Positions 6,080 to 31,614 of a DNA stretch of 64,000 nt are shown here, piece after piece (the stretch's first letter is position 1; each line of letters starts with the position of its first letter). Under the pieces are notes generated by a model. The model searched no databases. It was not told the DNA's origin and saw only the letters and a program-made list of their open reading frames with translations. Made by a program: the position numbers and the translations under genes. Source of the stretch: Mesorhizobium sp. J428 (GTDB lineage Bacteria > Pseudomonadota > Alphaproteobacteria > Rhizobiales > Rhizobiaceae); contig NZ_JAJOMX010000001.1 of assembly GCF_024699925.1 (NCBI RefSeq), forward strand, positions 1,402,001-1,466,000, in the 5' to 3' direction.

Positions 6080-6319
6080 CTAAGCTCTCATCTTCTCCAG
6101 CCAATCCTTTCCACATCCGCGATCGTGGATAATCGCCAGCGGGTCCTGGTGGTCGAGGCGGGAGCAGAGCCGGTAGACCTCCAGTGTCTCGGCGTTCATC
6201 AGTCCGCGCTTGTAGAGGGCCATCGCTGCCGCATAGCGCGCCCGGCCGGACCACGTCTCGCCGAGCGGCGTGCGGACCAGCGCCCAGTTCTCCGCGAGTT
6301 CGGCATCGTCGTCCGACAT
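6080..6319 (-). CDS. Small conserved-looking protein coupled to the GcvT-like gene (79 aa)
   Basis: ATG at 6319 overlaps the stop of the upstream GcvT-like gene by one base (TGATG), so the two are translationally coupled. The protein is soluble, with WSGRARYAAAMALYKRGLM and a C-terminal HDQDPLAIIHDRGCGKDWL segment containing one Cys and several His/Asp residues. No domain is recognised. Position and coupling suggest an accessory subunit or helper of the aminomethyltransferase-like enzyme (inference). Confidence 0.65.
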   Translation of the reverse strand: MSDDDAELAENWALVRTPLGETWSGRARYAAAMALYKRGLMNAETLEVYRLCSRLDHQDPLAIIHDRGCGKDWLEKMRA

Positions 6320-7537
6320 CAGAAATCACCTGGCGGCGTCAGCGTGCGTCGCGCGAGCTTGACGAAGGGGCGTTCGACGATCTTCGCGCGCTTCATCAGC
6401 TTCTGGTAGCGCAGCTCGCGCATGGCGTAGATCTCGACCCAGAGATCGTCGACGATCTTCGTGCCGTAGGGCCGTTCCAGACTGGCAATCGCAATATTGC
6501 GCTTGCCCGTCGGCGACCAGACGCCGGCCGTGACGATCCCCGCCTCCTTCGTCTTCCGATGATAGACGATCACGTGTTCGGCCGGGACATTGCCCTCGAT
6601 CTCCAGGCCGACCAGCACATGCTTCAGCGTACCATCGCGCCGCGCGCGCTCAATGGCGCGACGGCCATTGAAATGCGGCTTGTCGAAATCGACCATCCAG
6701 TCGAGCCCGATCTCATCGGGCATCCTGACGCGGTCGGCGCGGACGGCGTGCTCGGCCGTGGTGAAATCGGTATTGGCGACGATGAATCCGGTCTCGATGC
6801 GGGCGCGGTTGAGCGCGGTGTAGCCAATGGCGCGGATGCCGCGCAGCTTTCCCGCGACGAACAGGTGATCCCACAGTGGCAGCGCAAGATTCGCGTCGAC
6901 AAAGAGCTCGTAACCGAGATCACCGGTGAAGCCGGTGCGTGAGATGGTCACCTCGCCTGCGGGGAAGTGAAAGACGCGGATGTCGAACGGCTTCATCGTC
7001 TCGATACCGACGAAGCCCGCATCCTTGAGCGCCGCGCACGACATCGGCCCCTGCACCGCAAGCCCTGCGATTTCCTCGGTCTCCTCGCGCACGCTCACAT
7101 CGAAGCCGATAGCGCTATCGAGCAGCCATGGCAGGTGGCGCTCCTGGCAGCAGAGGCGGAAGCGGGTGGCGGAGAGGCGGAACAGTGTGCCGTCGTCGAG
7201 GACGTGGCCCTCGTCGTCGCACCAGGCGGTACTGCACCTTGCCGGGCTTGAGCTTTGTCACATTGCGCAGTGTAAGCCGGTTGCAGAACACCTCCGCATC
7301 CGGCCCCTCGATGCGGTATTTCACCATCGGCGAGATGTCGAACACCGCCGTCTGCGAGCGGATGGCGAAATACTCCATCTCCTCGTCCCACAACGAATGC
7401 GGCGCCTTGTAGCCGGCCCAGGAATACCAGTCGTTCTGCTGCGACAGGGCGGCGAGGCGGGGATGGAACGGGGATTCGAGGCGCAGGTTCTCGATGTGGG
7501 ATTGCGCGGCGCGGCGAGTGGCGAGAGCGTTCGTCAT
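6319..7537 (-). pseudogene. GcvT-like aminomethyltransferase (folate-dependent), interrupted by a frameshift
   Basis: Two adjoining minus-strand frames together encode one GcvT-family protein of about 405 aa. The N-terminal part starts at ATG 7537 (MTNALATRRAAQSH) and reads well through FDISPMVKYRIEGPDAE to KPGKVQY near 7230. There the frame changes: removing one C (about 7226-7229) restores AWCDDEGHVLDDGTLFRLS and continues through VQGPMSCAALKDAG and TGFTGDLGYELF to PPGDF at 6319. The family binds tetrahydrofolate and moves one-carbon units from aminomethyl or N-methyl donors. Neighbours are two FAD oxidoreductases upstream on the same strand. Either a real mutation or an assembly indel; both halves retain normal codon use, suggesting a recent or artefactual event. 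Confidence 0.8.
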
Positions 7538-7567
7538 GGCGATGTAGAGCTCCTTCGCGCTGATGAC

Positions 7568-7696
7568 GCCCCCTCCACCACTTCGTGGTCCCCCTCCCCC
7601 GTAAACGGGGGAGGATCCAGGTCACACCGGCGGTGCTGCCGCGGATCCTCCCCTGCGAAGCGGGGGAGGGGGACCGCCGAAGGCGGTGGAGGGGGC
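7568..7696. repeat. Large inverted repeat made of nested GC-rich palindromes
   Basis: Outer arms CCCCTCCACC (about 7569-7578) and GGTGGAGGGG (about 7684-7693) enclose smaller palindromes: CCACTTCGTGG, CTCCCCCGTAAACGGGGGAG, and CTCCCCTGCGAAGCGGGGGAG. The whole element can fold as one long hairpin. It lies in the gap between the GcvT-like gene and the upstream FAD oxidoreductase, inside what is otherwise one transcription unit. Elements of this look are common intergenic mosaic repeats in rhizobial genomes. Confidence 0.75.
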
Positions 7697-7724
7697 GCGA
7701 GGTCGACCTGTTGAAACACGGCCA

Positions 7725-9299
7725 TCACCCCCTCCCCTTCAGCAAAGCCCGCGCCGCATTCAGCCCCGGCACGCCCGAAATGCCGCCGCCCGGATGCGAA
7801 CCCGCAGACGCCAGCCATAGCCCGTCAACCGGCGCCGCATAACGCTCCGCCCCATAGAAGGGGCGGTTGACTAGCATCTGGTCGACCTGGAGTTCGCCGT
7901 GGTGCCAGTGACCGCCGGGCATGCGGTAGCGGGCCTCGATGTCGGCGGGGGTGAGCAGTTCTGCATGCTCGACCAGCCCGCCGATGCCCGGCGCATGGCG
8001 CTCCAGCACCGCCATGATCGCGGCAAGGAATGCCGGCCTTCCGGCCTCCCAGCCGCCCTTGAGCGCGTAGGGGGCGAACTGGACGTTGGCCGAGAGCACG
8101 CAGCCGCCGGAGGGCGCGAGCGACGGGTCAGACAGGCTCGGCAGCACGATCTCCATCACCGGCTCGGGCGACAGCTCGCCGTATTTTGCCGGGTTGAAGG
8201 CACGTTCCACCGACTGCGACGACGGCGCGATCACCAGCCGGCCTGCCAGCGCCTCGCGTGGCGCGCGGAAAGCTGGGATGCCGGACAGTGCAAGGTGGAG
8301 CTTCGCGACGTTGCCCTTCATGCGGATAGCCTGCGCCTTGCGCACCACCCCCGTGTCGAGTTCGGCCGGGCCGACCAGATCGACCAGCGTCGTGCGCGGG
8401 TTGATCGCCGAGACGACCGCGCCCGCGCGGATTTCCTCGCCGCCTTCGAGGCGAATGCCAACCACGCGACCTTTCTCTACTAGGATGCGCGAGACGGGTG
8501 CACCGCAACGGATGGTCACGCCCGCAGCCTCCGCTGCTTTGCGCATGGCCGCGACCACCGCGCCCATGCCGCCCCTCGGCATCACCTGCCCGCCCGCCTC
8601 GCCTGCAGTCTCCCCGGTCAGGCGATAGTAGAGGCCGAGCATCGAGGTCGGCGAGCGTGGGCCGAGATGGCTGCCGAGCACGGCCTCGAAGCCCACAAAG
8701 CCTTTCAGCCGGTCATCCGAAAGATGCTCGTCGGCGACGTCGTGGACATTCATCAGCATCATGCGCAGGAAATCGCGCATGTCCTCCTTGCCGAGTCGCT
8801 TCAGCGCAAGCGCGGCACCACCGTAGCCGAGGGCTTCGGTAAGCGGCATGCCGTGGAGGGAGGGCGGGAGTTTGGTGAGGAACGGTTTGAGGATGGCGGC
8901 GTAGCGCACGAGTTGTGCACGCATGGCGAGCCAGGCCTGCCTTTCGGAGACAGACACGTCGCCGCCGATTGTTTCACCCCAGCCGCCGGAGAGGAGGATG
9001 GGGTCGCGGTCGGGGGATATGAGCGCTGTCGGCGCAAGGCTGGGACGGGCGAAGGCGAGACCCTGCCCGGCAAGATCGAGTTCTTTGATCACCTCTGGAT
9101 GCAGGCGGTTGAGGAGATGCGCGGTCGAGGCACGGTAGCCGGGGAAAAACTCTTCCGTCCGCGCCGGCCCGCCCAGTTCCGTATCGGCTTCCACCAGCAG
9201 CACCTTGCGCTCGGCCTTTCCCAGCACGGCCGCCGCCACCAGCCCGTTGTGGCCGCCGCCGACGACGATGACGTCCCAGCTTTTCTCAGATGACGTCAT
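7725..9299 (-). CDS. CrtI-type NAD(P)/FAD-dependent oxidoreductase
   Basis: 524 aa. The N-terminal dinucleotide-binding motif reads DVIVVGGGHNGLVAAAVLGKAERKVLLVEA, followed by GGPARTEEFFPGY. The C-terminal FAD motif GLWLASAGSHPGGGISGVPGLNAARALL is the phytoene-desaturase/amine-oxidase-type end. The ATG at 9299 overlaps the end of the upstream paralogue by 14 bases. No carotenoid genes are present, so a role in carotenoid synthesis is unlikely; the ABC importer, amine oxidase and transaminase nearby suggest oxidation of an amine or related intermediate (inference). Confidence 0.85.
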   Translation of the reverse strand: MTSSEKSWDVIVVGGGHNGLVAAAVLGKAERKVLLVEADTELGGPARTEEFFPGYRASTAHLLNRLHPEVIKELDLAGQGLAFARPSLAPTALISPDRDPILLSGGWGETIGGDVSVSERQAWLAMRAQLVRYAAILKPFLTKLPPSLHGMPLTEALGYGGAALALKRLGKEDMRDFLRMMLMNVHDVADEHLSDDRLKGFVGFEAVLGSHLGPRSPTSMLGLYYRLTGETAGEAGGQVMPRGGMGAVVAAMRKAAEAAGVTIRCGAPVSRILVEKGRVVGIRLEGGEEIRAGAVVSAINPRTTLVDLVGPAELDTGVVRKAQAIRMKGNVAKLHLALSGIPAFRAPREALAGRLVIAPSSQSVERAFNPAKYGELSPEPVMEIVLPSLSDPSLAPSGGCVLSANVQFAPYALKGGWEAGRPAFLAAIMAVLERHAPGIGGLVEHAELLTPADIEARYRMPGGHWHHGELQVDQMLVNRPFYGAERYAAPVDGLWLASAGSHPGGGISGVPGLNAARALLKGRG

Positions 9300-10905
9300 G
9301 GGCGTCGCTCATCTGGCGGTTGGGGCGCTTGAGGTCGCGCAGGATCTCGGCCGCGGCATTCCTGCCCGGCGCACCCATGACGCCGCCGCCGGGGTGGGTG
9401 GACGAGCCGCACATGTATAGGCCGCCGACCGGCGAGCGGTATTGCGCATAGCCCGGCACCGGGCGGTTGAAGAGGAGTTGGTCGAAGGTCAGCTCACCCT
9501 GGAAGATGTTGCCCTCGGTGAGGCCGACCTCGGCCTCGATCTCGCGCGGCGTGCGCACCTCCATGTGGACGATGCGGTCGCGGAAGCCGGGCGAATAATC
9601 GGCGATCTGGGAGATCACCGTCTCGGCGAAGGCGTCGCGGTCGGCGTCGGTCCAGTCGCGTCCGTCGATCTTCGGCGGTGCGTATTGCACGAAGCAGGAC
9701 ATGAAGTGCTTGCCGGCGGACGCCATCGTCGGGTCAAGCGTGGTGGGCAGCACCATGTCGAGGAAGGGGTCGCGCGAGAAGCGGCCCTCCTTCCAGTCGT
9801 CGTAGCCGCGCTCCATCCGCTCCACCGTGTCGGTAAAGTGCATGTCGCCCTTGAGGCAGGGCGAATCCTTCGGCAGCGCCGGGAACTCCGGCATCGAGTC
9901 GAGCGCGATGTTCACCTTGCCGGACGAACCGCGGATCTTGAAGTTCTTGACCCGCCGCAGGAACAGCTCGGGCAGTTCCTTCTCCTCGACCAGCTTGAGA
10001 AAGGTGCGCTTCACGTCGGCGTTGGAGATAACGATTTTTGCGCTCACCTCCTCACCGTTCGCCAGCACCACGCCGGTGGTGCGGCCGCTGCGCACGAGGA
10101 CGTGGTCGACGCCGGCGCCGGTGCGGATGGTGCCGCCCGAGGCCTTGAAGGAGTCCGCCAGCGCTTTCGTCACTGCGCCCATGCCGCCCCGCGCGTAGCC
10201 CCAGGCGCCGATGGAACCGTCGACCTCACCCATATAGTGGTGGAGGAGCACATAGGCGGTGCCGGGCGACATCGGCCCGAGCGCGGTGCCGATGATGCCG
10301 GACAGCGCGAGATTGGCCTTGATCACCGGCGTCTCGAAATACTCGTCGAGAAAGTCGGAGATCGACATCGTCCAGAATCGCAGCGTCAGCGCCATCTCGG
10401 CCGGTGTCAGCCCGCCGAACTTCTTGCCGAGATAGAGCAACTCGCCGAGGTCGCGGGGCCGCAGACTCGTCGGGTCGGGCGCGGTGCGCATCAAGAGCGG
10501 CTGGATGAAGCGGCACTGCCGCGTCACGTCGCGGGCATAGCGGTCATAGGCTTCCGCATCGCGCGGCGACCAGCGGGCGAACTCGCGGCGGTGCGCGTCG
10601 TGGTCGCGGTAGGAGGCGAGATAATCGCCGTCCTGCGTGAACACCGCGCCACCCTCATAGGGGATGACCTGCAGGCCGAAGCGCGGCAGCTCGAGGTCAC
10701 GCATGATCTCAGGCCGGAACAGCGAGCAGACATAGGAGCAGTTGGAATAGAGCCAGCCGGGCGTGAGTTCACGACTGGTGGCGGCACCGCCAACCCAGTC
10801 GTTCTTCTCGACCACCAGCACGTCGAGGCCGGCCCGCTGCAAGTAGCAGGCGTTGACGAGGCCGTTGTGGCCCGCGCCGATCACGATGGCGTCCCAGGTC
10901 TTCAA
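9286..10905 (-). CDS. CrtI-type NAD(P)/FAD-dependent oxidoreductase, first gene of its operon
   Basis: 539 aa from a TTG start at 10905, chosen because AGGGGAG lies just upstream and the FAD motif DAIVIGAGHNGLVNACYLQRAGLDVLVVEK begins four residues later; a longer frame to 10986 would start inside the operator. The C-terminal motif GLYMCGSSTHPGGGVMGAPGRNAAAEIL mirrors that of the downstream paralogue, and GYARGGMGAVTKAL is also conserved between the two. The pair may form a heterodimer or act on successive intermediates (inference). It is divergent from the methyltransferase-TetR unit and shares with it the operator-like palindrome at 10967-10986. Confidence 0.83.
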   Translation of the reverse strand: MKTWDAIVIGAGHNGLVNACYLQRAGLDVLVVEKNDWVGGAATSRELTPGWLYSNCSYVCSLFRPEIMRDLELPRFGLQVIPYEGGAVFTQDGDYLASYRDHDAHRREFARWSPRDAEAYDRYARDVTRQCRFIQPLLMRTAPDPTSLRPRDLGELLYLGKKFGGLTPAEMALTLRFWTMSISDFLDEYFETPVIKANLALSGIIGTALGPMSPGTAYVLLHHYMGEVDGSIGAWGYARGGMGAVTKALADSFKASGGTIRTGAGVDHVLVRSGRTTGVVLANGEEVSAKIVISNADVKRTFLKLVEEKELPELFLRRVKNFKIRGSSGKVNIALDSMPEFPALPKDSPCLKGDMHFTDTVERMERGYDDWKEGRFSRDPFLDMVLPTTLDPTMASAGKHFMSCFVQYAPPKIDGRDWTDADRDAFAETVISQIADYSPGFRDRIVHMEVRTPREIEAEVGLTEGNIFQGELTFDQLLFNRPVPGYAQYRSPVGGLYMCGSSTHPGGGVMGAPGRNAAAEILRDLKRPNRQMSDAHDVI

Positions 10906-10966
10906 GCCGTCTCCCCTCGCGGTCTTTCGCAAGGCTGCCACGGAAAATCCCCACCTGTCCAGCCAT

Positions 10967-10986
10967 ATTGAATGAACGTTCAACAA
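10967..10986. promoter_or_regulatory. BetI/TetR-type operator, site A
   Basis: TTGAATGAACGTTCAA (10968-10983) contains the perfect palindrome TGAACGTTCA (10973-10982). It lies in the 156-base gap between divergent transcription units starting at 10905 and 11062. A closely similar inverted repeat precedes the Rieske oxygenase at 31593-31614. The sequence resembles operators of BetI, the choline-responsive TetR repressor, and the neighbouring gene at 11850 encodes a BetI-like protein, so autoregulation and repression of both units is inferred. Confidence 0.6.
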
Positions 10987-11061
10987 GAGTGCTTGCGATT
11001 TCCTCCAACTGCGCTAGGGTTTCACGACTGTCGACCTATCCGCGCGGGAGAGCTGCGGGCC

Positions 11062-11841
11062 ATGCACGACCAGCCCGAATATGACGACACCGCGATCCGC
11101 TTCCTCGAAGCGCTGTGGGGCGACGGCTGGCTGTCGCCGGGCGGGCCGGAAGAGGTCGACCGGGTGCTCGACGGCGTCGACGTCAAGGGTAAGCGGGTGC
11201 TCGACATCGGCTGCGGCTCGGGCGGCATCGCGGTCCACATCTTCAGGAACCACGGCGCGGCCCACGTCACCGGCTTCGACATCGAGGAGCCGGTGATCCG
11301 CCACGCCATCGACCGCGCCGCGACGTGCGGGCTCGCCAACGTCGTCGAGTTCGTGCAGGCCCCGCCGGGTGCCCTGCCCTTTGCCAACGAGAGCTTCGAC
11401 GTCGTCTTCTCCAAGGACGCGCTGCTGCACGTGCCGGACAAGGACGCGATATTCGCCGAGATCTTCCGCGTGCTGAAGCCCGGCGGCACAATCGCCGCGT
11501 CCAACTGGATGATCAGCCACGACGGCGAGCCGTCGGACGACATGAAGGCCTATATCGCGGCGGAGGGGCTGAGCTTCGCGATGGCCTCGCCGGCGCGCTA
11601 CGCCAAAGCGATGGAGCGCGCCGGCTTCCGCGATGTCGTGATGGTCGACCGCAATCCCTGGTACCGCGAGGTCGCGCGCGGCGAGTTGGAGAAGCTCAAA
11701 GGCCCGATGTTCGAGAAGGCCTCGAACGCGGTCGGCGAGGACTACGTGCGCAAGAACATCAGGACGTGGGAAGCGATGCAGAAGGTGCTTGACTCCGGTG
11801 AGCACCGGCCCACCCATCTGCGCGGACAGAAGCCGGAATAA
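11062..11841 (+). CDS. Class I SAM-dependent methyltransferase, phosphoethanolamine-N-methyltransferase-like
   Basis: 259 aa from ATG 11062 (MHDQPEYDDTAIRFLEALWG), preceded by GGGAGAG; an in-frame ATG at 10972 overlaps the operator palindrome and is less likely. Motif I is VLDIGCGSGGIAVHI, the acidic loop is VTGFDIEE, and motif IV is FDVVFSKDALLHVPD, where the KDALLHVPDK segment is typical of phosphoethanolamine/sarcosine-type N-methyltransferases. Eight bases separate it from the TetR gene. In a catabolic setting the methyltransferase might modify an intermediate or act in the reverse sense of demethylation; the substrate is unknown. Confidence 0.8.
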   Translation: MHDQPEYDDTAIRFLEALWGDGWLSPGGPEEVDRVLDGVDVKGKRVLDIGCGSGGIAVHIFRNHGAAHVTGFDIEEPVIRHAIDRAATCGLANVVEFVQAPPGALPFANESFDVVFSKDALLHVPDKDAIFAEIFRVLKPGGTIAASNWMISHDGEPSDDMKAYIAAEGLSFAMASPARYAKAMERAGFRDVVMVDRNPWYREVARGELEKLKGPMFEKASNAVGEDYVRKNIRTWEAMQKVLDSGEHRPTHLRGQKPE

Positions 11842-11849
11842 TCAGACAG

Positions 11850-12533
11850 ATGCTCAAGACCGCCGAACGTCCGAAATCGGAACAGCCCAAGGAGCCGGAG
11901 GCGGAACGCAAGGGCCGCAAGGCCTCGAAGGAGACGCGGCGGCTGCAGCTGATCGAGGCGACGATCGATTCGCTGGCGAAGCGCGGCTATTCCGAGACGA
12001 CGATGGCCGACGTGGCCGATGGCGCCGGCCTTTCGCGCGGCATCGTCAACTTCCATTTCGAATCCAAGGAAAAGCTGCTGGTGGCGACCCTCCAGCACAT
12101 GTCCGAGGAATATGCCGCCCACTGGCGCGGCGCGCTGGACAAGGCGGGCGACGATCCGGCGAAGCGGTTGGCGGCGGTCGTCGCGGCCGACTTCGACCGC
12201 GCGGTCTGTTCGCGCCGCAAGCTCGCCGCCTGGTGCGCCTTCTGGGGTGAGGCGAAGTCGCGGCCGACCTACCAGGCGCTGTGCGGATCGCGCGACCTCG
12301 CCTACCAGAACACGATGGTGGAGCTGTGCGCGGCGCTTGCGAAGGACGGCGGCTACGCCTTCGATCCGGAGAAGGTCGCGCTTGGCCTCGCGGCGATGCT
12401 GGAAGGCGTGTGGCTGCGGCTGATGATGGGCGGCGAGGAGATCAACCGCGAAAAGGCGCATGAGGCGGCACTCGAACATCTGGCGGTGGTGTTTCCGAAG
12501 CACTTCGCGCAGGCCGGCGCGCGCCGGGCGTAG
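11850..12533 (+). CDS. BetI-like TetR/AcrR family transcriptional regulator
   Basis: 227 aa. After a lysine-rich leader, an N-terminal helix-turn-helix reads RRLQLIEATIDSLAKRGYSETTMADVADGAGLSRGIVNFHFESKEKLL (about 40-87). The following ligand-binding domain with EEYAAHWRGALDKA and a C-terminal LGLAAMLEGVWLRLMMG segment matches the BetI subgroup. It probably represses the divergent promoter at site A and the related sites near 19.95 kb and 31.60 kb, and is relieved by the pathway substrate (inference from operator similarity). It is followed 63 bases later by the periplasmic binding protein gene. Confidence 0.85.
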   Translation: MLKTAERPKSEQPKEPEAERKGRKASKETRRLQLIEATIDSLAKRGYSETTMADVADGAGLSRGIVNFHFESKEKLLVATLQHMSEEYAAHWRGALDKAGDDPAKRLAAVVAADFDRAVCSRRKLAAWCAFWGEAKSRPTYQALCGSRDLAYQNTMVELCAALAKDGGYAFDPEKVALGLAAMLEGVWLRLMMGGEEINREKAHEAALEHLAVVFPKHFAQAGARRA

Positions 12534-12596: not shown

Positions 12597-13682
12597 ATGA
12601 CAGCATTCGGCAGACGGACATTGCTCACCGCATCCCTTGCCGCCGCGCTCGCCGCGTCGGTGTCGACCGTGTCGCTCGCGGAGGACAGCGAACTCACCGT
12701 GTTCGACTGGTCGGGCTACGAGGACCCGGCCTTCCATCCGAAATATGTCGAGAAATACGGCGACTCGCCGACCTTCACCTTCTTCGGCGACGAGGACGAG
12801 GCCTTTGAGAAGATCCGCGCCGGCTTCAAGACCGACCTCGCACACCCCTGCTCGCAGAGCGTGGTGAAGTGGCGCGAGGCGGGCATCCTGCAGCCGCTCG
12901 ACACGTCGAAGATCCGCGGCTGGAACGACCTGAACCCCGGCATCATGGCGATGAAGAACCTCGCCACGGACGCCGAGGGCAAGGCCTGGTTCATGCCCTG
13001 GGACTGGGGCAACACGGCGCTGACCTACAACACCGAGAAGATCAAGGCGGAGGAGGTGACCTCGCTGAAAGCCTTCGCCGACCCGAAGTTCAAGGGCCGC
13101 GTCTCGATCGGCGACAATGTCGACGACGCCTATGCGCTGGCGAGCCTCGTCATCGGGCTGAAGGACTGGACGGCGATGACTGACGAGCAGTTCAAGCAGG
13201 CGTCCGATTTCCTGCGCGAGGTGCACAAGAACGTGCGGCTCTACTGGACCGATTCCACCGAGATCGTGCAGGCGCTGGGCGGCGGCGAGGTCGATCTCGC
13301 CTGGGCGTGGAACGACGCCGGCACGCAGCTCGCCAACGAAGGCAAGCCCTTCGCCATCAACCGCGACACGGCCGAGGGCCTGACCACCTGGGTCTGCGGC
13401 TACGTGATGCTGAAGGACGCGCCCGGCAACACGGACAAGGCCTACGAATTCCTGTCCGACGTCAACGACGACCCGGAGGTCGCCAAATACATCGTGAACG
13501 ACTGGGGCTACGGCCACGCCAACGCCAAGGCGATGGAGGCGGTCGATCCCGAAGTGCTGAAGGCCAAGGGCTATGCCGACGTGGCGAAATTCGTCGACAA
13601 GACGCTGTTCCAGTCGCCCGTGCCGGCCGAGCTCAAGGGCAAGATGATCGCCGAGTTCGAGAAGATCAAATCGGGGTATTGA
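12597..13682 (+). CDS. Periplasmic polyamine-type substrate-binding protein of an ABC importer
   Basis: 361 aa with a Sec signal peptide (MTAFGRRTLLTASLAAALAASVSTVSLA, cleavage near residue 28). The mature start ELTVFDWSGYED and the later FMPWDWGNTALTYN, GDNVDDAYALASL and EVDLAWAWNDAG segments are those of PotD/PotF-type (COG0687) binding proteins. Acidic and tryptophan residues in these stretches usually bind polyamine nitrogens. RBS AGGAG lies 10 bases upstream of ATG. The matching ATPase and two permeases are encoded 3-6 kb away on the opposite strand, so the importer is split over two units. Confidence 0.9.
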   Translation: MTAFGRRTLLTASLAAALAASVSTVSLAEDSELTVFDWSGYEDPAFHPKYVEKYGDSPTFTFFGDEDEAFEKIRAGFKTDLAHPCSQSVVKWREAGILQPLDTSKIRGWNDLNPGIMAMKNLATDAEGKAWFMPWDWGNTALTYNTEKIKAEEVTSLKAFADPKFKGRVSIGDNVDDAYALASLVIGLKDWTAMTDEQFKQASDFLREVHKNVRLYWTDSTEIVQALGGGEVDLAWAWNDAGTQLANEGKPFAINRDTAEGLTTWVCGYVMLKDAPGNTDKAYEFLSDVNDDPEVAKYIVNDWGYGHANAKAMEAVDPEVLKAKGYADVAKFVDKTLFQSPVPAELKGKMIAEFEKIKSGY

Positions 13683-13711
13683 AGGGCGGTTGAGCGGCGG
13701 CGCGGCCCTTT

Positions 13712-13834
13712 CCTTCTCCCCGTTCACGGGGAGAAGGTGCCCGAAGGGCGGATGAGGGGCATGGTGACAGCTTTCGGGAGTTGACGCCGCCCCTCACTGT
13801 CCTGCCGGACATCTCTCCCCGTGAACGGGGAGAG
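13712..13834. repeat. Paired palindromic repeat element
   Basis: CCTTCTCCCCGTTCACGGGG begins a perfect hairpin at 13712-13737, and CTCTCCCCGTGAACGGGGAG begins a second one at about 13812-13834. They are near mirror images separated by about 75 bases that contain a further GAGGGGC/GCCCCTC pairing (about 13754-13795). The element follows directly after the binding-protein gene and could terminate or stabilise its transcript. It belongs to the same kind of mosaic repeat as at 7.6 and 14.6 kb. Confidence 0.7.
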
Positions 13835-13948
13835 AGACGCTGCTCTTCGGCCGCGCGAAGTCGCCGACCGCAGCGCATTTTTCGCGGAAGCAAGCAGAAT
13901 CGGTCTGGAGCACTCACCTGTCCTGCAAGGGTGCAGAACAAGTGCCTC

Positions 13949-14354
13949 TCAGGACGTGTCGTGCAGCTCGACCGGGATGGAGGCGGCTATGGCAAGTCTC
14001 TCGATGAAGGCGTCGAGGCCGTGGATCGCGTTGCCCTCGTTGCCGGCCTCGTCGGAGGCCTGCCCTTGGTGCAGGAACGACAGGCGGCAGAGCTGTGCCG
14101 CGATGGCCTGCATGTAGAGCCCGAATGCTCTGAGCAGAATCGGCAATGTCCTCCGCATCGAAGGGATTGCTGCCGAAGCCGGCCGGCATCAGGACGGGCG
14201 TCCAGGGCCTGCGGGCGGAACTGCGCAGCGTGCCCTCGACATAGGCGCTAAGCAGCGCATTGGCCTGCCAGGCGGCCCACAGCACGCACCAGCGGACCCA
14301 GAACGAGCGGCTGGCGGCCTGTTCGGCCATGTCGGCGATCGAGAACAGGCGCAT
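13949..14354 (-). pseudogene. Small hypothetical gene split by a frameshift
   Basis: Read from ATG 14354, MRLFSIADMAEQAASRSFWVRWCVLWAAWQANALLSAYVEGTLR continues to SNPFDAEDI near 14150. Sensible residues then continue in a second frame as LPILLRAFGLYMQAIAAQLCRLSFLHQG and end at VELHDTS (13949). Joined, this is about 135 aa, helical and rich in W, A and Q, loosely phasin-like in composition, but I do not recognise a family. It is flanked on both sides by palindromic mosaics and has no evident partner. It may be a decayed gene; the frameshift rests on reading continuity only. Confidence 0.4.
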
Positions 14355-14562
14355 GACGATCCTCGCCTTTAACGCCTGTTCCCTCCCCGCCTTCGCCCTC
14401 CAGCCCATCGCCGGCTCCCGTTTGACCGGGCACAAGTGTGGTGCCTTCTCGAAGGGCGGGGATAGAAAAAGTTGGCGGTTGTGAGAATCTCGAAGCCGGG
14501 CAAGAGGTTGGCGACGGAAGGGGCGGAAATCGATCAACGGGGTGCAGGCAACCGCGCTCAAT

Positions 14563-23707: not shown

Positions 23708-24963
23708 TGACTGCCGAGGCGAGGGCCGAAACGCTGCCGACCCACCGCGTCGTGCTCGCGGTGGGCGGGCTCTATGTCGCCCAGAGCGTGATTGGCGGCA
23801 TCACCTGGACCGGCCTGCCGGCCGTGATGCGCGATCAAGGCGTGTCGCTGGAACATGTCGGCCTGCTGTCCCTCATCGCCCTGCCCTGGGCGCTCAAGTT
23901 CCTCTGGTCCCCGTGGATCGAGCGCTACCGTCTGCCTTTGTCCGGCGGAAACCGGTCCGCCTCGCTTGCAGTCGCGGGCAGTCTCGTCTGCCTTGCCGGC
24001 CTCGCGGCTGTTGCCGTCGCCGGCGTGCAATCGTTGCCCTTCGTTCTTGCCTGCCTGACATTGGTGGCCTTCGCCGCTTCGACTGTCGACATCGTCTGCG
24101 ACGGTTATGCCGTGGAGAGCTTCGCTCCTAAGGAGCAGGGCTGGGGCAATGCCGCCCAGGTCGGCGGCGCCTATCTCGGATCGGCGATCGGCGGCGGAAT
24201 CTTCCTCGTCATCGTCGCGATGACGGGCTGGAGCATCGGCGTCTGGTCGATGATCGCGCTTCTGGTCGCGCTCGGCCTGCCCTTCGCCTTCATTGCCTCC
24301 TCGACCCGCCGTGGCGCGGAACGCACACATGTTCCCTCGCTCCGTTCCGCCCTGGCGCGGCCCGAGCTTCGCCGCGGCCTGCTCGTCGCGGCCCTCTATG
24401 TCGTGGCGCAGAAGATGGGGCTTGCGATGCTCGCTCCCTTCCTCGTCGACGCCGGCATGGACCTCGGCACGATCGGACTTGTGAACGGCGCCGGCAGCCT
24501 TCTTATCGGCTTCGCGGCGGCGATCGCGGGTGGCGCCCTCGTCAGGCGTTACGGCACAACAACGGTGATGATCGCAGCGGTGGTGCTCCAGGCCGGCGCA
24601 CTCGCCTTCTTCGCGGCCAGCCACTATCTCCCGCCGGTGCCGATGCCGCTGCTGGCCGCGGTAGCGATCGCCAGTTCCTCCGGCATCCTCGCGCTCGGCT
24701 TCGTCGCGCTCTACGCGCAGTTCATGCGCTGGTCGGACCCGCGCCAGGGGGGCGTCGACTTCACCCTGTTCCAGTCGATGGACGCACTGGTGAGCATCAT
24801 CGGCGGCGTGGTCGCAGGCCAGGTGGCCGGCAAGCTCGGCTATGGCATCTTCTTCGGGGCCGCTGCGCTCATTGCCGTGGCGACGATCCCGGCGATCATC
24901 GCGACGGTCGAAAAGCGAAGCCCCGCCATGCGCGCAGCCAGCCCCACCCGCCAGGAGGCCTGA
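23707..24963 (+). CDS. RhtX/FptX-like single-protein siderophore permease (MFS)
   Basis: 418 aa with about twelve TM helices. The N-terminal [25 protein letters not shown] and [19 protein letters not shown] segments are those of the RhtX/FptX permeases, which move ferric siderophores (rhizobactin, pyochelin) across the inner membrane without an ABC transporter. Further marks are [10 protein letters not shown] and [20 protein letters not shown]. It is coupled to both neighbours (1-base overlap upstream, 1-base gap downstream). Confidence 0.88.
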
Positions 24964-24964
24964 C

Positions 24965-26032
24965 ATGCCGATCGCCGATACCGTCATACGCCTGCAGTCG
25001 CCGCAGACGGTCATGGCCGCGCTGCTCGACCATCTCGGCGAACATGGTTCCGTCACGGGCAGCGAGGCAGCATGGTCGGTGGCCTTCGAGATCGGCACGG
25101 CGTCCGCCCGTCTCCTCGACGGATCCATCGCCTTCCGTGTCGAGGCGCCCGACGACACGTCTCTGTCCTTCCTTCAGTGGGGCGTGGTCGAGCATGTGCA
25201 CGAGTTCGCGCCGGCAGAGCGCCCCGAAGTCTCATGGCGCGGCGGGTTGGCGGCAGGAACGCGCCCACCCTATTTCCGCGAGATGCAGGTGGTATCGGCG
25301 CGGAACATCACGCCGCGCATGAGGCGGCTGACGCTCGCGGGCGACAATCTCGAACGTTTCGCGCAGCACGGCATACATATCCGCCTGCTGCTGCGTCCGC
25401 GGCACGACGCTCCGGTCGTGTGGCCGGTGATGGCCGCCGACGGACGCCAGGCATGGCCGGAGGGCGAACGCCCCGTGATGCGTATCTATACAATCCGCAG
25501 CATCGATGTTGCGGCCGGCACGATGGATGTCGATTTCGTCCTGCACGAGGGCGACGACATGCCTGGCGCGCGATTCGGCGCAGAGGCGAAACCGGGGGAC
25601 CTTGTCGGCATGACAGGACCGGGCGGCGGCACCCTGAAGGTCGCGCCGAGCTACCTCTTCCTCGGCGACGAGACCGCCTTGCCGGCGATCGGGCGGCTGC
25701 TCGAGGAACTGCCGGACGACGCGAAGGCCAAGGCGTATGTGGAGATCGCGGACGACGCCGAGCGGCAGGACATCGCCGTGAAGCCGGGGGTGGATCTCGT
25801 ATGGCTATCCCGTGGCGGCAAGCCCGCCGGCAGCACCGATGGTCTTTTGCAGGCGCTGCGCGACGTCCCGGGCGCGTTCTGGGGGGACGACCCCTATGTC
25901 TGGGCGGGATGCGAGCAGAGCACCGCACGAGCGATCAAGGCCCATCTGGCGGACACTGTCCGGCTCAAGAAGGGCCGCAGCGTCGTCGGCAGCTACTGGA
26001 AGCTGGGTGCGGCTGGCGAGGTGGACGAGTAG
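24965..26032 (+). CDS. Siderophore-interacting protein (ferric-siderophore reductase, FAD_binding_9/SIP)
   Basis: 355 aa from ATG 24965, one base after the permease stop. An N-terminal region of about 100 residues resembling a DUF2218 domain (SAAWSVAFEIGTASARLLDG-like acidic fold) precedes the flavin reductase module. That module shows RRLTLAGDNLERF, the FAD site MRIYTIRS and GDLVGMTGPGGG. The C-terminal NAD-binding part contains FLGDETALPAIGRLLEEL and DPYVWAGCEQSTARAIKAHL. It reduces the imported ferric siderophore in the cytoplasm to release Fe(II). The last 40 bases overlap the convergent histidine kinase gene. Confidence 0.92.
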   Translation: MPIADTVIRLQSPQTVMAALLDHLGEHGSVTGSEAAWSVAFEIGTASARLLDGSIAFRVEAPDDTSLSFLQWGVVEHVHEFAPAERPEVSWRGGLAAGTRPPYFREMQVVSARNITPRMRRLTLAGDNLERFAQHGIHIRLLLRPRHDAPVVWPVMAADGRQAWPEGERPVMRIYTIRSIDVAAGTMDVDFVLHEGDDMPGARFGAEAKPGDLVGMTGPGGGTLKVAPSYLFLGDETALPAIGRLLEELPDDAKAKAYVEIADDAERQDIAVKPGVDLVWLSRGGKPAGSTDGLLQALRDVPGAFWGDDPYVWAGCEQSTARAIKAHLADTVRLKKGRSVVGSYWKLGAAGEVDE

Positions 26033-27390
26033 CGAGGCGGGTTGGCGTTTGGCAGCGTCACAGTCACAGACAGGCCGCCGAGGTCCGAGCGGCCGAGGCT
26101 GACCGAGCCGCCATAGGCTTCGGCTATATCGCGGACGATCGCGAGGCCAAGGCCGGTGCCGCCGCTGCGGTCCAGCCTGCCGCCGCGCGCGAGCGCGACC
26201 GCGCGTTCGTCTTCCGCAAGGCCCGGGCCGTCGTCCTCGACCAGCAGCGAGACCGTCCCGGCAGCACTCTCCCATCCGACCCGGATGCGGGAGCGCGCAT
26301 GGCGCGCGGCATTGTCGAGCAGGTTGCCGAGCATCTCGTTGAGATCATCGCCGTCGACGGGAAAGACGATGTTGTCCGGGACGTCCACCGCGATGGCCTT
26401 GCCCTCCGCCGCCGGAATGCGCTCGACCACGCGCGCGATGCGTCGCGCTGCGTCCGCAAGCGGCGTCGCGGCACGGCTGGTGCCGTGGCGCAGCCGGGTG
26501 CGGGCGAGCTCGCGGTCGACATGCCGGCGCATCGAATCGGCCAGCGCTTCGAGATTGTCCGCGATCTCGCGGTCGCCGCGCTCTCGCAGCCTGCGTATGT
26601 CGGCGGCGATCGCGGTAAGCGGCGTCTTGAGGCCGTGCGCGAGATCCGCGGCGCGATCGCGCGCGCGGACGAGCTCGCGCTCCTGCGTATCGAGAAGCGA
26701 GTTCATCTCGGTGACCAGCGGCTCGACCTCGCGCGGCACCTGGGTCGAGAGCCTGCGCACCCTGCCGGCGCGCACCTCGCCGACGGCTTCAGCGACGGCG
26801 GCGAGCGGCCGCAGGCCCGAAACGATCTGGATCCATATCCCGGCGGCGAGCACCAGTCCGAGGGCGGCCAGCACATAACCGGTATCGCGTGCAAAGCCGC
26901 TCCGCAGCTCGGCAAGCTGGGACCGGTCGATGCCGACCGTCACGCGCAGGCGATGGTCGACGCCGCCGACCGACACGACCAGGCTGCGCTCGTGCAGAAG
27001 CAGGACGGCATCCTGCGGACCCGCCGCGTCGCGGGTCAGCTCCGCACCTGGAGCGATCTCCGCCCCGCGGGGGATGACGAAATCCCAGAGCGAACGCGAG
27101 GCGAGCCGCTCCGCGGACGTCTCGTCCTCGACCTGCCAGTAGAACCCGCCGAACGGGCGCGAGAAACGGGGATCGGCAGGCTCGCGGGCGAGGCTGAGCG
27201 TGCCTGCCGGATCGATCCGGAGCGTGCCGGCGATCGACTGGAGATGGGTGTCGAGCTCCTGCCCGACGCGGCGGTCGAGGTGACGCGAGAACAGGGCGGA
27301 CAGGCCGATGCCCGTGACGACGAGCGCGACCGCCAGCAGGCCGAGGCCGAGCGCGAAGAAGCGCAGCCGGAGCGAACGGGCCGACGTCAC
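25993..27390 (-). CDS. Two-component sensor histidine kinase (PhoQ/QseC-like)
   Basis: 465 aa from a GTG start at 27390 that overlaps the stop of the response regulator gene. Two TM helices (about 9-34 and 171-190) bracket a periplasmic sensor of about 135 residues. A HAMP-like linker is followed by the phospho-acceptor H252 in AADLAHGLKTPLTAIAADIRRL, the N box NEMLGNLLDNAARH (N360), and the G boxes VEDDGPGLAEDE and GGTGLGLAIVRDIAEAYGG. It phosphorylates the regulator encoded just upstream. The signal is unknown; iron or membrane redox state is suggested by the neighbours (inference). Confidence 0.92.
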   Translation of the reverse strand: MTSARSLRLRFFALGLGLLAVALVVTGIGLSALFSRHLDRRVGQELDTHLQSIAGTLRIDPAGTLSLAREPADPRFSRPFGGFYWQVEDETSAERLASRSLWDFVIPRGAEIAPGAELTRDAAGPQDAVLLLHERSLVVSVGGVDHRLRVTVGIDRSQLAELRSGFARDTGYVLAALGLVLAAGIWIQIVSGLRPLAAVAEAVGEVRAGRVRRLSTQVPREVEPLVTEMNSLLDTQERELVRARDRAADLAHGLKTPLTAIAADIRRLRERGDREIADNLEALADSMRRHVDRELARTRLRHGTSRAATPLADAARRIARVVERIPAAEGKAIAVDVPDNIVFPVDGDDLNEMLGNLLDNAARHARSRIRVGWESAAGTVSLLVEDDGPGLAEDERAVALARGGRLDRSGGTGLGLAIVRDIAEAYGGSVSLGRSDLGGLSVTVTLPNANPPRYSSTSPAAPSFQ

Positions 27391-28058
27391 TATGGCACCG
27401 CCTCGTCCCGAACGAGGTAGCCGAAGCCGCGACGGGTCTCGATCATTGCCGCCGGCAGCTTGCGCCGCACGCGCCCGACCAGCACCTCGACGGCGTTGGA
27501 TTCGCGCTCGAAATGCTGCGCCTGCAGATGCTCCGCGAGCTCCTGCTGCGGCACGACCCGCCCGCGGTTGAGCATCAGATAGGCGACCAGCCGATACTCC
27601 TGCGGCGACAGCGCGACGGGCACGCCGCGCACCGTCAGCCGCATCTGGCGCGTGTCGAGTTCGGCCTCGCCGATGCGGATGAGCGCGGAGGAATGGCCGG
27701 CGGAGCGGCGGATAATCGCCCTCAGCCGCGCGAGAAGCTCCTCCATGCGGAAGGGCTTGGGCAGGTAGTCGTCGGCGCCGGCATCGATGCCCTCGACGCG
27801 CTCGCTCCAGGTTCCGCGCGCGGTCAGCACCAGCACGGGAAAGTCACGGCCGGCCTCGCGCCATCGCTTGAGGATGGCAAGCCCGTCCATGCCCGGCAGG
27901 CCGAGGTCGAGGACACAGGCGCCGTAGGATTCGGTGTCGCCCTGGAACCAGCCGTCCTCGCCATCAGCCACCGCGTCGACGACGAAGCCGCTGGCCTCCA
28001 ACGCGGCGGCGACGTCTTCACGGATGCGCCGGTCGTCTTCGATGAGCAGCACGCGCAT
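27390..28058 (-). CDS. OmpR/PhoP-family response regulator
   Basis: 222 aa from ATG 28058. The receiver domain has acidic residues E7-D8-D9, the phospho-acceptor D51 in CVLDLGLPGMDGL, the conserved T/S in VLVLTARGTW and K in YLPKPFRMEEL. The C-terminal winged-helix DNA-binding domain contains LSPQEYRLVAYLMLNRGRVV and SNAVEVLVGRVRRKL. It lies between the PepSY gene upstream (1-base gap) and the kinase gene downstream, forming a three-gene unit that is probably autoregulated from the promoter region 28381-28503. Confidence 0.94.
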   Translation of the reverse strand: MRVLLIEDDRRIREDVAAALEASGFVVDAVADGEDGWFQGDTESYGACVLDLGLPGMDGLAILKRWREAGRDFPVLVLTARGTWSERVEGIDAGADDYLPKPFRMEELLARLRAIIRRSAGHSSALIRIGEAELDTRQMRLTVRGVPVALSPQEYRLVAYLMLNRGRVVPQQELAEHLQAQHFERESNAVEVLVGRVRRKLPAAMIETRRGFGYLVRDEAVP

Positions 28059-28059
28059 C

Positions 28060-28380
28060 TCAGTCCTCGTCCACGGACAGGATCCGCCCGGTTGCAGGAT
28101 CCACCGTGAGCTCCCGGCGCCGGCCGTCGGAGCCGAGCACGTAGATCTCGTAGACGAAGCCCTCGTCTTCGTCCTCGAGCTCCACCTCCAGGACGTCGCC
28201 CGCGACGCCCTGCGCACGCAGCAGCTCGAGGATGCGCGCAAGCGGCAGGACCTCCCCGCGCTCGCGGGCGCGTTCGAGCGTTCGGCGGTCGTCGTGATCC
28301 TCCCGCCCGCCCTTGTCGGCGGATGCGGGCGCCGCGGCGGCAAGCAGGGCCGCAAGGAGGACGGGAACGAGGGCGCGCAT
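28060..28380 (-). CDS. Exported PepSY-domain protein
   Basis: 106 aa with a signal peptide (MRALVPVLLAALLAAAAPASA, about 21 residues). The mature part carries one PepSY domain (ARILELLRAQGVAGDVLEVELEDEDEGFVYEIYVLGSDGRRRELTVDPATGRIL). PepSY proteins bind or inhibit partners at the cell envelope. It is the first gene of the unit with the response regulator and kinase, so it may act as a periplasmic modulator of the kinase (inference). Confidence 0.88.
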   Translation of the reverse strand: MRALVPVLLAALLAAAAPASADKGGREDHDDRRTLERARERGEVLPLARILELLRAQGVAGDVLEVELEDEDEGFVYEIYVLGSDGRRRELTVDPATGRILSVDED

Positions 28381-29455: not shown

Positions 29456-30202
29456 TCACGTCACGCTCAGTCCGGTCGTCACAACCATCGGTGCGCGCTC
29501 CGGCACGCGGTCGTAGAGGTCGATGATATCCTGGTGCATCAGCCGCACGCATCCCGACGACACGGACTTGCCGATCGACGCCCATTCCGGCGAGCCGTGC
29601 AGACGGTAGAGCGTGTCCTCACCATTCTGGAAGATGTAAAGCGCGCGCGCCCCGAGCGGGTTGCTGACGCCCGCCTCCATGCCGCCTTCCCACTCATTCG
29701 TGCCCGGAATCTGCCGGGCACGGTATTTCTCCAGCTCTGGCTGGCGGGCGATCATCTCCTCAGGCGGAAACCAGCGCGGCCATTTCTGCTTCCACTCGAT
29801 CACCCCACGGCCCGACCACTCGAAGCCCTGGCGGCCGAGACCGACGCCGTAGCGAAGCGCTGCGCCGCTGTGGACGACGAGATAGAGGAAGTGGTTCGCC
29901 GTATCGACGACGACGGTGCCCGGCGCCTCGCCTGTCGGATCCGGAACGATCTGGCGGTAGAATCTCGGATCAATCTTCTCGATCGGAACGGCCGGGATAG
30001 CATGGCCTTCATCGAAGGCGGCAGCATACATCACGCGAGGGTCGCCGACGGCCGGAGTGGGCATCGGGAGGGGGAGCGGTTCGGGCACAGCGGCGGCCGC
30101 CCCCGCCGCTCGCTCACGGCCGCCTGCGCAGGCCGACAGGCCGGCTGATGCGACGCTCGCGGCGGCCCCTGCAAGGAGCCCACGGCGGCTGAGTTTCGAC
30201 AT
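29456..30202 (-). CDS. L,D-transpeptidase (YkuD domain), probable lipoprotein
   Basis: 248 aa from ATG 30202. The N-terminus combines twin arginines (SRRGLLAG) with a lipobox-like LSAC ending at C25. After a proline-rich linker the YkuD catalytic domain shows VVDTANHFLYLVV and the active-site motif HGS (H202) with SSGCVRL (C218). It forms 3-3 peptidoglycan cross-links or attaches proteins to peptidoglycan in the periplasm. Transcribed on its own. Confidence 0.92.
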   Translation of the reverse strand: MSKLSRRGLLAGAAASVASAGLSACAGGRERAAGAAAAVPEPLPLPMPTPAVGDPRVMYAAAFDEGHAIPAVPIEKIDPRFYRQIVPDPTGEAPGTVVVDTANHFLYLVVHSGAALRYGVGLGRQGFEWSGRGVIEWKQKWPRWFPPEEMIARQPELEKYRARQIPGTNEWEGGMEAGVSNPLGARALYIFQNGEDTLYRLHGSPEWASIGKSVSSGCVRLMHQDIIDLYDRVPERAPMVVTTGLSVT

Positions 30203-30378
30203 CGGACTCCGAATCAGTTCCACACGGGCTCCCAACACGCGGAGAGCCTGCGCGTTCCTCCTGTATCTGCCGGGCCGCGTGCCTGCAACCCATGAACAAA
30301 CAGGCCGTTCATCGGGATGATCGCTCCGTCTTGTCGCGATGCGCATCCAAAGGCCCTGCGCAGTGTGTGCGGCACGAT

Positions 30379-31578
30379 TTACTTGCGGCTCGCCAGCGCC
30401 TCGTTCAGGCCGGCGACGTCCTTCTCCTCGGGCGCGGATTCGAGGTTGACCACCGGCAGCACAGCACGGATGTGGTCGTGATGCGTGCGCACGCCGTATT
30501 CGAGGTCTGAGAGGTAGAAACCTTCGAAGCCGTTCGACGTCATCGACTCGTTCGACCACTCGGACAGCTGCACGTCCTCCGCCATCGTGTCGCGGTCGAT
30601 GCGGAAGGCGAGATAGCGCGCGGCGGCCTGCTCGCGGCTCTCGTCGGCATAGCGATAGATCGCGCCGCGCAGCAGCGTCTGGCCGGTGGAGAGAGGAAAT
30701 TCCTGGTAGAACTGGACCGTCTCCGGCGTCATCGCGATCACCGCATTCGGGAACAGCCCGTAATAGATCCAGGCACGACGAAGCGGTTGCGGCAGGCGCT
30801 CCGGCTGCGGCGCGATTTTGACGTAGTTGCGCACGCTCCAGCGCCGGCCGGCATGCGGGTTGTAGGTGGCGAAGGAACGCGAGACGCCGTTGACGAAGGG
30901 CTCGTCGTAATAGGTCGAGCCATAGAGATCCTGCAGCGCAGGGTGCGCCATCGCGACGTGGTAGCCTTCGTTGTCGACGTCACGCACCGACTTCCAGTTG
31001 ACATTCGACACGCTCGACCAGATGCCCCAGGAAGGCACCATCTCCTCGATGCGGTAGGGCGCGATCTCGGCCTCGTGCGGCTGCATCAGCTCGGCCACGG
31101 AGGGCTGCGGACCGGGGCGGAAGCGGATGAAGATGAACCCCATCCAGATTTCGAGGTCGAGCTGCTTCAGGCCGAACTCGACCTTGTCGAGATCCGGAAA
31201 CGAGCGCGGCCGCGCGGCCCCGCGCAGCGTGCCGTCGAGATTGTAGACCCAGCCGTGGAACGGGCAGACCAGCGCATTGCGGCAATTGCCCTGGTTGTCG
31301 GCGACAACGCGCGAGCCCCGATGGCGGCACATGTTGAGGAAGGCGCGCACGACGCCATCCTTGCCGCGCACGGCGAGCGCCCGCTCGCCCACCACGTCCA
31401 TCGCCAGGTAGTCGCCCGGATTCGGCACGTCGGACACGTGGCCGACGATCTGCCAGTGGGTGCGGAACAGGTGCTCCTTCTCCAGTTCGAGGAGCGCCGG
31501 ACTGTGATAGGTCCAGCCCGGAAGGCCACTGCGATCCCAGTCGTTCGGAATAGCCACATTGCCCGCGCGGCGGTTCAT
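30379..31578 (-). CDS. Rieske non-heme iron oxygenase, alpha subunit
   Basis: 399 aa from ATG 31578; the longer frame to 31629 crosses the operator. The Rieske [2Fe-2S] ligands are C84-x-H86 and C105-xx-H108 (NMCRHRGSR; VCPFHGW). The mononuclear iron site is DNEGYHVAMAH with H207 and H212. This architecture is shared by ring-hydroxylating dioxygenases and by N-demethylating oxygenases of betaines and choline-type compounds. No ferredoxin or reductase gene lies nearby, so electrons must come from elsewhere. A BetI-type inverted repeat sits just upstream of the start, linking it to the 6-21 kb amine cluster. Confidence 0.9.
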   Translation of the reverse strand: MNRRAGNVAIPNDWDRSGLPGWTYHSPALLELEKEHLFRTHWQIVGHVSDVPNPGDYLAMDVVGERALAVRGKDGVVRAFLNMCRHRGSRVVADNQGNCRNALVCPFHGWVYNLDGTLRGAARPRSFPDLDKVEFGLKQLDLEIWMGFIFIRFRPGPQPSVAELMQPHEAEIAPYRIEEMVPSWGIWSSVSNVNWKSVRDVDNEGYHVAMAHPALQDLYGSTYYDEPFVNGVSRSFATYNPHAGRRWSVRNYVKIAPQPERLPQPLRRAWIYYGLFPNAVIAMTPETVQFYQEFPLSTGQTLLRGAIYRYADESREQAAARYLAFRIDRDTMAEDVQLSEWSNESMTSNGFEGFYLSDLEYGVRTHHDHIRAVLPVVNLESAPEEKDVAGLNEALASRK

Positions 31579-31592
31579 GAAAGCCCCCGTTC

Positions 31593-31614
31593 TTATTGAA
31601 TGTTCATTCAATAA
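31593..31614. promoter_or_regulatory. BetI/TetR-type operator, site C
   Basis: TTATTGAATG (31593-31602) and CATTCAATAA (31605-31614) form a perfect 10-bp inverted repeat with a 2-base spacer, 15 bases upstream of the Rieske oxygenase start. Aligned to site A at 10967-10986 it agrees at about 16 of 20 positions. This is the strongest operator-like palindrome in the window. Confidence 0.65.

Follow-up and report, generated by a model that had tools for sequence, protein, structure and literature searches.

What does a bacterium do with a gene block that joins two CrtI/CrtO-type flavoenzymes to a folate-dependent GcvT protein, a Rieske oxygenase and a polyamine-type importer? The block lies in a 64,000-nucleotide stretch of the Mesorhizobium sp. 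J428 genome (hereafter the window; G000:C1:1402001-1466000 of 5.88 Mb), in which genes were called from codon-position composition together with Pfam and NCBIfam searches. An earlier note on this DNA had proposed a catabolic system for a methylated amine or a betaine-like compound, and family searches of the window recover every gene that it named, each in the family it had given. The block is real and forms one system. We read it, with moderate confidence, as a regulon that is controlled by a BetI-family repressor and serves to break down an N-methylated, probably quaternary, amine. The amine would be imported, lose one methyl group to the Rieske oxygenase and the rest to folate through CrtA, CrtB and GcvT, and then be transaminated. 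CrtA and CrtB serve here as labels only, and no carotenoid function is meant. The genes and operators of the block are as follows.

6080-6319, minus strand: p79, 79 amino acids (aa), last gene of the crtA-crtB-gcvT-p79 row
6319-7098, minus strand: C-terminal part of gcvT, 259 aa as listed (GCV_T and GCV_T_C)
7115-7537, minus strand: N-terminal part of gcvT (GCV_T profile positions 10-83)
7725-9299, minus strand: CrtB, a CrtI/CrtO-type flavin adenine dinucleotide (FAD) oxidoreductase (Amino_oxidase and DAO)
9286-10986, minus strand: CrtA, a CrtI/CrtO-type FAD oxidoreductase (Amino_oxidase and DAO)
10967-10986, between the crtA and methyltransferase starts: operator 1, ATTGAATGAACGTTCAACAA, 0 mismatches
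10972-11841, plus strand: S-adenosylmethionine (SAM) methyltransferase (methyltransferase domains)
11850-12533, plus strand: BetI-family TetR repressor (TetR_N and TetR_C_6)
12597-13682, plus strand: Pot-type periplasmic binding protein (SBP_bac_6)
14953-16209, plus strand: flavin amine oxidase, accessory (Amino_oxidase)
16975-18072, minus strand: PotA-like ATP-binding cassette (ABC) ATPase (ABC_tran and TOBE_2)
18065-18886, minus strand: PotC-like ABC permease (BPD_transp_1)
18883-19803, minus strand: PotB-like ABC permease (BPD_transp_1)
19953-19968, between potB and the transaminase gene: operator 3, weaker, CTGAACGGATATTCAA, one mismatch to TTGAAYGNNYRTTCAA
19997-21460, plus strand: class III transaminase (NF005447)
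30379-31629, minus strand: Rieske oxygenase (Rieske and Ring_hydroxyl_A)
31593-31614, upstream of the Rieske gene: operator 2, TTATTGAATGTTCATTCAATAA, two perfect 10-base arms around 2 bases

Three of the listed starts probably need adjusting: crtA probably begins near 10908, the methyltransferase probably later than its listed start, and the Rieske gene probably at the in-frame ATG at 31578. The Rieske gene stands about 9 kb past the transaminase gene, separated from it by genes for iron uptake, a two-component system, cytochrome b561 and YkuD.

Co-inheritance and a shared operator

CrtA, GcvT and the Rieske oxygenase travel together. The family sample comprises 199 genomes: 45 have CrtA, the same 45 have GcvT, at a distance of 2.7-3.4 kb from CrtA, and the Rieske gene is present in 45/45 of these genomes versus 6/154 of the others (Fisher 1.7e-38, relatedness not corrected). 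It shares a contig with CrtA in 39 of the 45 and lies within 15 kb of it in 28, and in one genome the two are 343 kb apart. The co-occurrence that the earlier note had named as a check on its reading is thus borne out. Close relatives of the cluster are from Mesorhizobium, and a 97%-identical relative of CrtA is named M. australicum.

The set is common, with at least 586 stretches carrying CrtA relatives in one public collection. The best 80 of these, taken with 10-kb flanks, contain at 45% identity or more CrtA and CrtB (80 each), BetI and the N-terminal part of GcvT (79 each), the C-terminal part of GcvT, the binding protein and p79 (77 each), PotA (72), PotC (71), PotB (70), the methyltransferase and the transaminase (69 each), the amine oxidase (56) and the Rieske oxygenase (22), the last count being low because the flanks extend only 10 kb. 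Across 93 cluster loci, a number that includes at least one duplicate (L040 and L075 carry the same genes and are apparently one contig), CrtB was found in 92, BetI in 91, p79 in 86, the methyltransferase in 79 and the amine oxidase in 66. There is no transaminase match in 21 of these loci and less than 1 kb of sequence beyond the transaminase gene in 41; in 22 of the 31 loci with at least 1 kb of sequence there, the Rieske gene follows within 1.3 kb.

In a set of 61 genomes, a CrtA match at E<=1e-60 occurs in 19 (own included). Of the twenty stretches examined, 12 carry crtA, crtB and gcvT in that order (with one of these truncated at a contig end), another is the end of a contig and bears crtA, and the remaining seven hold only a 27-40% relative of CrtA; these seven (L052-L058) were excluded from the cluster counts as paralogs. 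L055 does not sit easily with a clean paralog split: at 8690-11920 its 40% CrtA relative stands beside 38% Rieske and 31% BetI relatives, and it is perhaps a sister system.

Further out, CrtA matches at E<=1e-190 occur in 13/337 genomes of a class sample and 11/349 of a phylum sample (own included). We examined 13 of the distant loci, leaving out G225 and seven close relatives, and looked for the window genes and eight others, so that other importers there would escape notice. The genes crtA, crtB and gcvT are adjacent in 11 of the 13, the other two loci being on short contigs, and GcvT is recognizable down to about 30-36% identity in L185-L187. A Rieske relative lies near the trio in L177 (34%), L180 (24% and 32%) and L188 (60% and 23%), and some distant loci have an aldehyde dehydrogenase, a CoA ligase, an acyl-CoA dehydrogenase or a GSAM-like transaminase beside it. 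The common core is crtA-crtB-gcvT, around which the partner genes differ.

The second line of evidence is regulatory. The earlier note had tied the Rieske oxygenase to the block through a shared operator, and this holds: the 20-mer ATTGAATGAACGTTCAAYAA occurs at 10967-10986 with 0 mismatches and at 31593-31612 with one (chance expectation 0.00), it matches both strands of 31593-31614, and its core TTGAATGNNCNTTCAA has two sites in the 5.88-Mb genome, both in the cluster, with none for a reversed-pattern control. A degenerate pattern with one mismatch allowed adds a third copy, absent from that note, at 19953-19968, and yields four distinct sites in all, namely operators 1, 2 and 3 and C1:3265319. 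Such a count is close to what chance gives (4 forward and 3 reverse, versus 3 forward and 2 reverse in the reversed control); the placement of three of the four within the cluster is not.

The operator is kept in relatives, where we scored the best match within about 260 bases upstream of each gene against random stretches drawn from the same loci, which may themselves include true operators. Upstream of crtA, at least 12 of 16 positions match in 90/93 loci (random 8/279). The three misses are L048, L049 and L050, and L048 and L050 have a 13/16 match further upstream, beyond an inserted transaminase gene. The transaminase/potB promoter reaches at least 12/16 in 72/72 loci (random 9/216), and so does the Rieske promoter in all 15 testable relatives (random 3/45), 10 of 25 loci having been dropped for lack of upstream sequence; each of the 15 has a match of at least 13/16. 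An independently expressed oxygenase would have counted against the earlier proposal; the Rieske gene shares its operator with the cluster both here and in relatives. The repressor scores 126 bits with NF001978 (cut-off 118) and 129.6 with TIGR03384 (cut-off 201.3), and the sites predict that a single BetI-type repressor binds at all three promoters of the cluster. Gene content, the shared operator and the co-inheritance of CrtA, GcvT and Rieske constitute the computed part of our case.

The fourth site (G000:C1:3265319-3265334, about 1501-1516 of L207) follows an amidohydrolase gene and lies directly before a PotA-like ABC ATPase open reading frame (from 1544); the same site occurs in G003. 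It perhaps marks a second importer of the regulon.

A proposed route and its rivals

Each catalytic step is inferred from the families to which the proteins belong. In the absence of inducer, the repressor would sit on the palindrome at the three promoters. The compound would be imported by the Pot-type binding protein and PotABC, after which the Rieske oxygenase would hydroxylate one N-methyl group, to be lost as formaldehyde; the models for this step are GbcA and Stc2, which carry out Rieske N-demethylation with the methyl group leaving as formaldehyde. CrtA and CrtB, whose genes are adjacent and which may form one complex, would oxidize the remaining N-methyl groups, and GcvT would pass the one-carbon unit to tetrahydrofolate as methylene-tetrahydrofolate, by analogy with the folate part of the trimethylamine N-oxide (TMAO) demethylase Tdm and with the T-protein. 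Finally, the class III transaminase might take the resulting primary amine, with the amine oxidase helping in some genomes. The same succession of import, Rieske demethylation, one-carbon capture on folate and transamination had been sketched in the earlier note, and it is supported by the co-inheritance, the operator and the kinship of GcvT to Tdm.

That kinship emerges from a profile of 19 GcvT relatives, whose best solved match is the folate part of TMAO demethylase (2.9e-79), with T-proteins and then sarcosine oxidase and dimethylglycine dehydrogenase (DMGDH; 1pj5, 4p9s, 1vrq) behind it. The DDGT segment aligns with DDGTLFR of Tdm, and its second Asp, which we take to mark the conserved catalytic Asp region, is kept in most of the 19 rows (D122 is nearly invariant). 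Both the GCV_T and GCV_T_C domains of the folate-dependent GcvT superfamily are present in the window, split over two frames. The family named for this protein at the outset stands, and the 259-aa protein once taken for it is the C-terminal part only of a frameshifted gene. The N-terminal part (7115-7537) and the C-terminal part (6319-7098) are in different frames, the open frame of the latter is 312 aa long and runs on to about 7257, and the window is 2 bases short near 7218 compared with close relatives. Among the 45 gcvT copies in the 199 family genomes, 44 match almost the full profile within a single open frame, the window copy being the sole cut one (profile positions 103-406). The break could be either a recent loss of GcvT in this isolate or an assembly error.

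The importer, the amine oxidase and the transaminase resemble polyamine families, the top solved match of each being otherwise named or unnamed. For the transaminase, NF005447 gives 721 bits (cut-off 618) and is named only 'aminotransferase', and the solved relatives are 3i5t, 6io1 and then putrescine aminotransferase 6gwi. The amine oxidase is nearest to monoamine oxidase 8p84 (1.5e-44), followed by putrescine oxidase 2yg7 (2.3e-40). The best solved match of the binding protein is Lmo0810 (4gl0, 7e-22), ahead of PotF variants, and the PotD/PotF models give it 85 bits against cut-offs of 582/636. PotA scores 364.8 bits with TIGR01187 (cut-off 355.6) and 380 with NF006987 (cut-off 482), while the PotB model gives 189.5 bits against 348 and the PotC model 190 against 326. 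In comparison with PotFGHI/PotABCD and putrescine catabolism, the importer genes and the transaminase are thus similar, whereas the binding protein and permeases fall below the Pot cut-offs and two PotF aspartates are not kept. As for the substrate itself, an N-methylated diamine or an N-epsilon-methylated lysine is our guess, and a doubtful one.

Several possible substrate clues occur in some loci only and were left unused: a C45-family hydrolase, an M19 dipeptidase, and, in G049 (L190), a diaminopimelate-decarboxylase-like gene close to the Rieske relative. The first lies, with a second Pot-type importer, between the Rieske gene and p79 in L045 (1600-7018); the second is found near p79 in 46/92 clustered loci (for example L043 6946-8208). 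Flavin mononucleotide oxidoreductases beside the Rieske gene in L177 and L180 were considered as kin of trimethylamine dehydrogenase; they give only OYE/FadH-type matches under the cut-offs, and we attach no weight to them.

A number of observations weigh against the proposed route. The best solved relative of the Rieske enzyme, carnitine monooxygenase CntA (6y9c, 2.9e-30), is not known as a demethylase: CntA splits the C-N bond of carnitine and releases trimethylamine, with no methyl removal. The genes annotated in the window include no Rieske reductase, and no genome search for one was made. Two aspartates with a role in PotF are replaced by Gly and Cys in the binding protein (the templates being PotF variants). 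The methyltransferase gene, present in 79/93 loci, is a poor fit to a purely demethylating route; its product is nearest to phosphoethanolamine N-methyltransferases (best solved 5wp5, 1.8e-38), and has YIAAEGL where these have YIKQRGY, a segment that we take to be phosphate-binding (the phosphobase Arg/Tyr pair). In G016 (L209 5127-9680), CrtA, CrtB and GcvT are missing but p79, methyltransferase, BetI, transaminase and Rieske remain, along with a second Pot importer; five more genomes have the Rieske gene without CrtA. Conversely, L181, L183-L187 and L189 have the trio with no Rieske or Pot match in the sequence examined. Lastly, with gcvT frameshifted, the full route may not run in this genome. 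The p79 kept in G016 may serve something other than GcvT or be a remnant; p79 has no Pfam or NCBIfam match, and AlphaFold models it as five helices (mean pLDDT 86.6, pTM 0.77), with no PDB fold match at E<=0.001.

A first alternative is a variant carnitine, gamma-butyrobetaine or glycine-betaine route, in which the Rieske oxygenase acts on the betaine and CrtA/CrtB/GcvT replaces DMGDH or sarcosine dehydrogenase. The Rieske enzyme is nearest to CntA and GbcA, the repressor is of the BetI family, and in some distant relatives the trio has as its neighbour a PuuC/betaine-aldehyde-dehydrogenase-like aldehyde dehydrogenase, a CoA ligase or an acyl-CoA dehydrogenase. However, the GbcA model NF058607, although the best in NCBIfam, gives 131 bits against a cut-off of 670, and the permeases and ATPase fit best as Pot-type, well above the ProV and choline models. 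The genome also holds seven further GcvT-domain matches in frames of 747-1134 aa, which by length only are of the size of DMGDH/sarcosine-oxidase fusions. On balance we regard a betaine route as unlikely.

It is less probable again that a CntA-like Rieske enzyme frees a methylated amine by cleaving the chain C-N bond, in which case CrtA/CrtB/GcvT would demethylate this small molecule and the rest would go to the transaminase or amine oxidase. The release of trimethylamine by CntA, the kinship of GcvT to a small-methylamine enzyme, and the existence of trio-only loci as well as the trio-less G016 would all fit such a scheme; against it speaks the lack of trimethylamine monooxygenase, gma/mgs or TMAO genes among the family matches of the cluster (no search was made beyond it). 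The same two kinds of loci, G016 with the Rieske part alone and several distant loci with the trio alone, might also mean that one regulator governs two activities, a Rieske/transaminase/Pot route and, for a substrate of its own, a CrtA/CrtB/GcvT module. We consider this highly improbable, given that the Rieske gene accompanies the trio in 45/45 genomes of the family sample and that the operator links both.

CrtA, CrtB and the PYROXD2 question

Our reading of the block as a regulon for an N-methylated amine gives CrtA and CrtB a role at odds with the names of their relatives, such as phytoene desaturase family protein. The CrtO model NF045689 gives CrtA 304 and CrtB 197 bits against a cut-off of 1000, and crtI_fam (TIGR02734) gives 137 and 115 bits against 238.1; on these cut-offs and on gene context we rejected a carotenoid role. 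That the two are carotenoid or lipid desaturases with accidental neighbours, as the family names phytoene desaturase or dehydrogenase would have it, is hardly credible in view of scores below the cut-offs of all carotenoid models and of the way in which GcvT and Rieske constantly accompany them.

The truncated UniRef name of a 98% relative of CrtA starts with 'Pyridine nucleotide-d', which we read as PYROXD2-type, and by this name CrtA may belong to the PYROXD2 family. We know of no reaction for human PYROXD2. We tentatively suggest, aware that we could well be wrong, that PYROXD2-type flavoenzymes are folate-coupled N-methyl-amine dehydrogenases. CrtA and CrtB would then be a two-flavin N-demethylase that delivers methylene to GcvT as a separate protein, adding a third architecture to those of DMGDH/sarcosine oxidase and Tdm/Dmm. 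This activity would also explain the control that human PYROXD2 variants exert over N-methyl-lysines and N-methylpipecolate. One human study assigns 50% of the variance in blood N6-methyllysine to a PYROXD2 variant, and ties dimethyllysine, trimethyllysine, N-methylpipecolate and N-acetyl-isoputreanine to the same locus (PMC8109053); another adds symmetric dimethylarginine (SDMA) (PMC11988406). A third study calls PYROXD2 a 'predicted oxidoreductase' and ties it to hydroxyhexadecanoylcarnitine (PMC9320943), a link that does not fit.

There are known systems on either side of such an architecture. In DMGDH and sarcosine oxidase, as proposed for the cluster, FAD-dependent N-methyl oxidation is coupled to a GcvT folate domain. 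Those enzymes carry a DAO-type flavin part fused to the folate part, whereas the flavin parts of the cluster are two separate CrtI/CrtO-type proteins. A separate GcvT in an N-demethylation operon has a precedent, since one report describes DmmD as a separate GcvT-domain protein from the same operon as the dimethylamine monooxygenase genes (PMC5520151). DmmDABC and Tdm rely on a GcvT-type folate protein or domain for N-demethylation, as we propose for the cluster. Neither is known to use flavoenzymes of the CrtI/CrtO type, and the same holds for a BetI operator, a Pot importer or a transaminase. GbcA, CntA and Stc2 share the Rieske and catalytic domains of the cluster enzyme, which differs from them in falling below the GbcA cut-off and in its neighbour genes. 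Each protein family is known, and we file the cluster as a variant of folate-coupled N-demethylation. An open-access literature search found no paper whose title or abstract describes it, and it brought up neither the regulon nor a combination of a separate GcvT with two CrtI/CrtO-type flavoenzymes. If our reading is correct, this would be an undescribed alphaproteobacterial route for methylated-amine use, names such as phytoene desaturase would mislead, and the bacterial operon would offer a direct biochemical test for human PYROXD2.

Neighbouring genes and minor features

Two further features lie among or beside the genes of the block.

16276-16941, plus strand: orphan open reading frame, 221 aa, with no Pfam or NCBIfam match
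21611-28355: iron block, with a ferrioxamine B receptor, a major facilitator superfamily (MFS) transporter, a siderophore-interacting protein with DUF2218, a histidine kinase and a response regulator

The ferrioxamine B receptor scores 1068 bits with NF010650 (cut-off 904). We take the iron, two-component, cytochrome b561 and YkuD genes at 21.6-30.5 kb as bystanders, because none has a match above 45% identity among the 80 named cluster loci. Within the block, a palindromic, G+C-rich element resembling repetitive extragenic palindromes lies between crtB and gcvT (7545-7700), with inverted CCCCCTCCACC arms and hairpin cores. The 1.2 kb from binding protein to amine oxidase (13700-14950) contains short inverted repeats and no convincing gene. 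Of 20 loci, only L041 holds a counterpart of the 221-aa reading frame, a 68% relative in the corresponding position.

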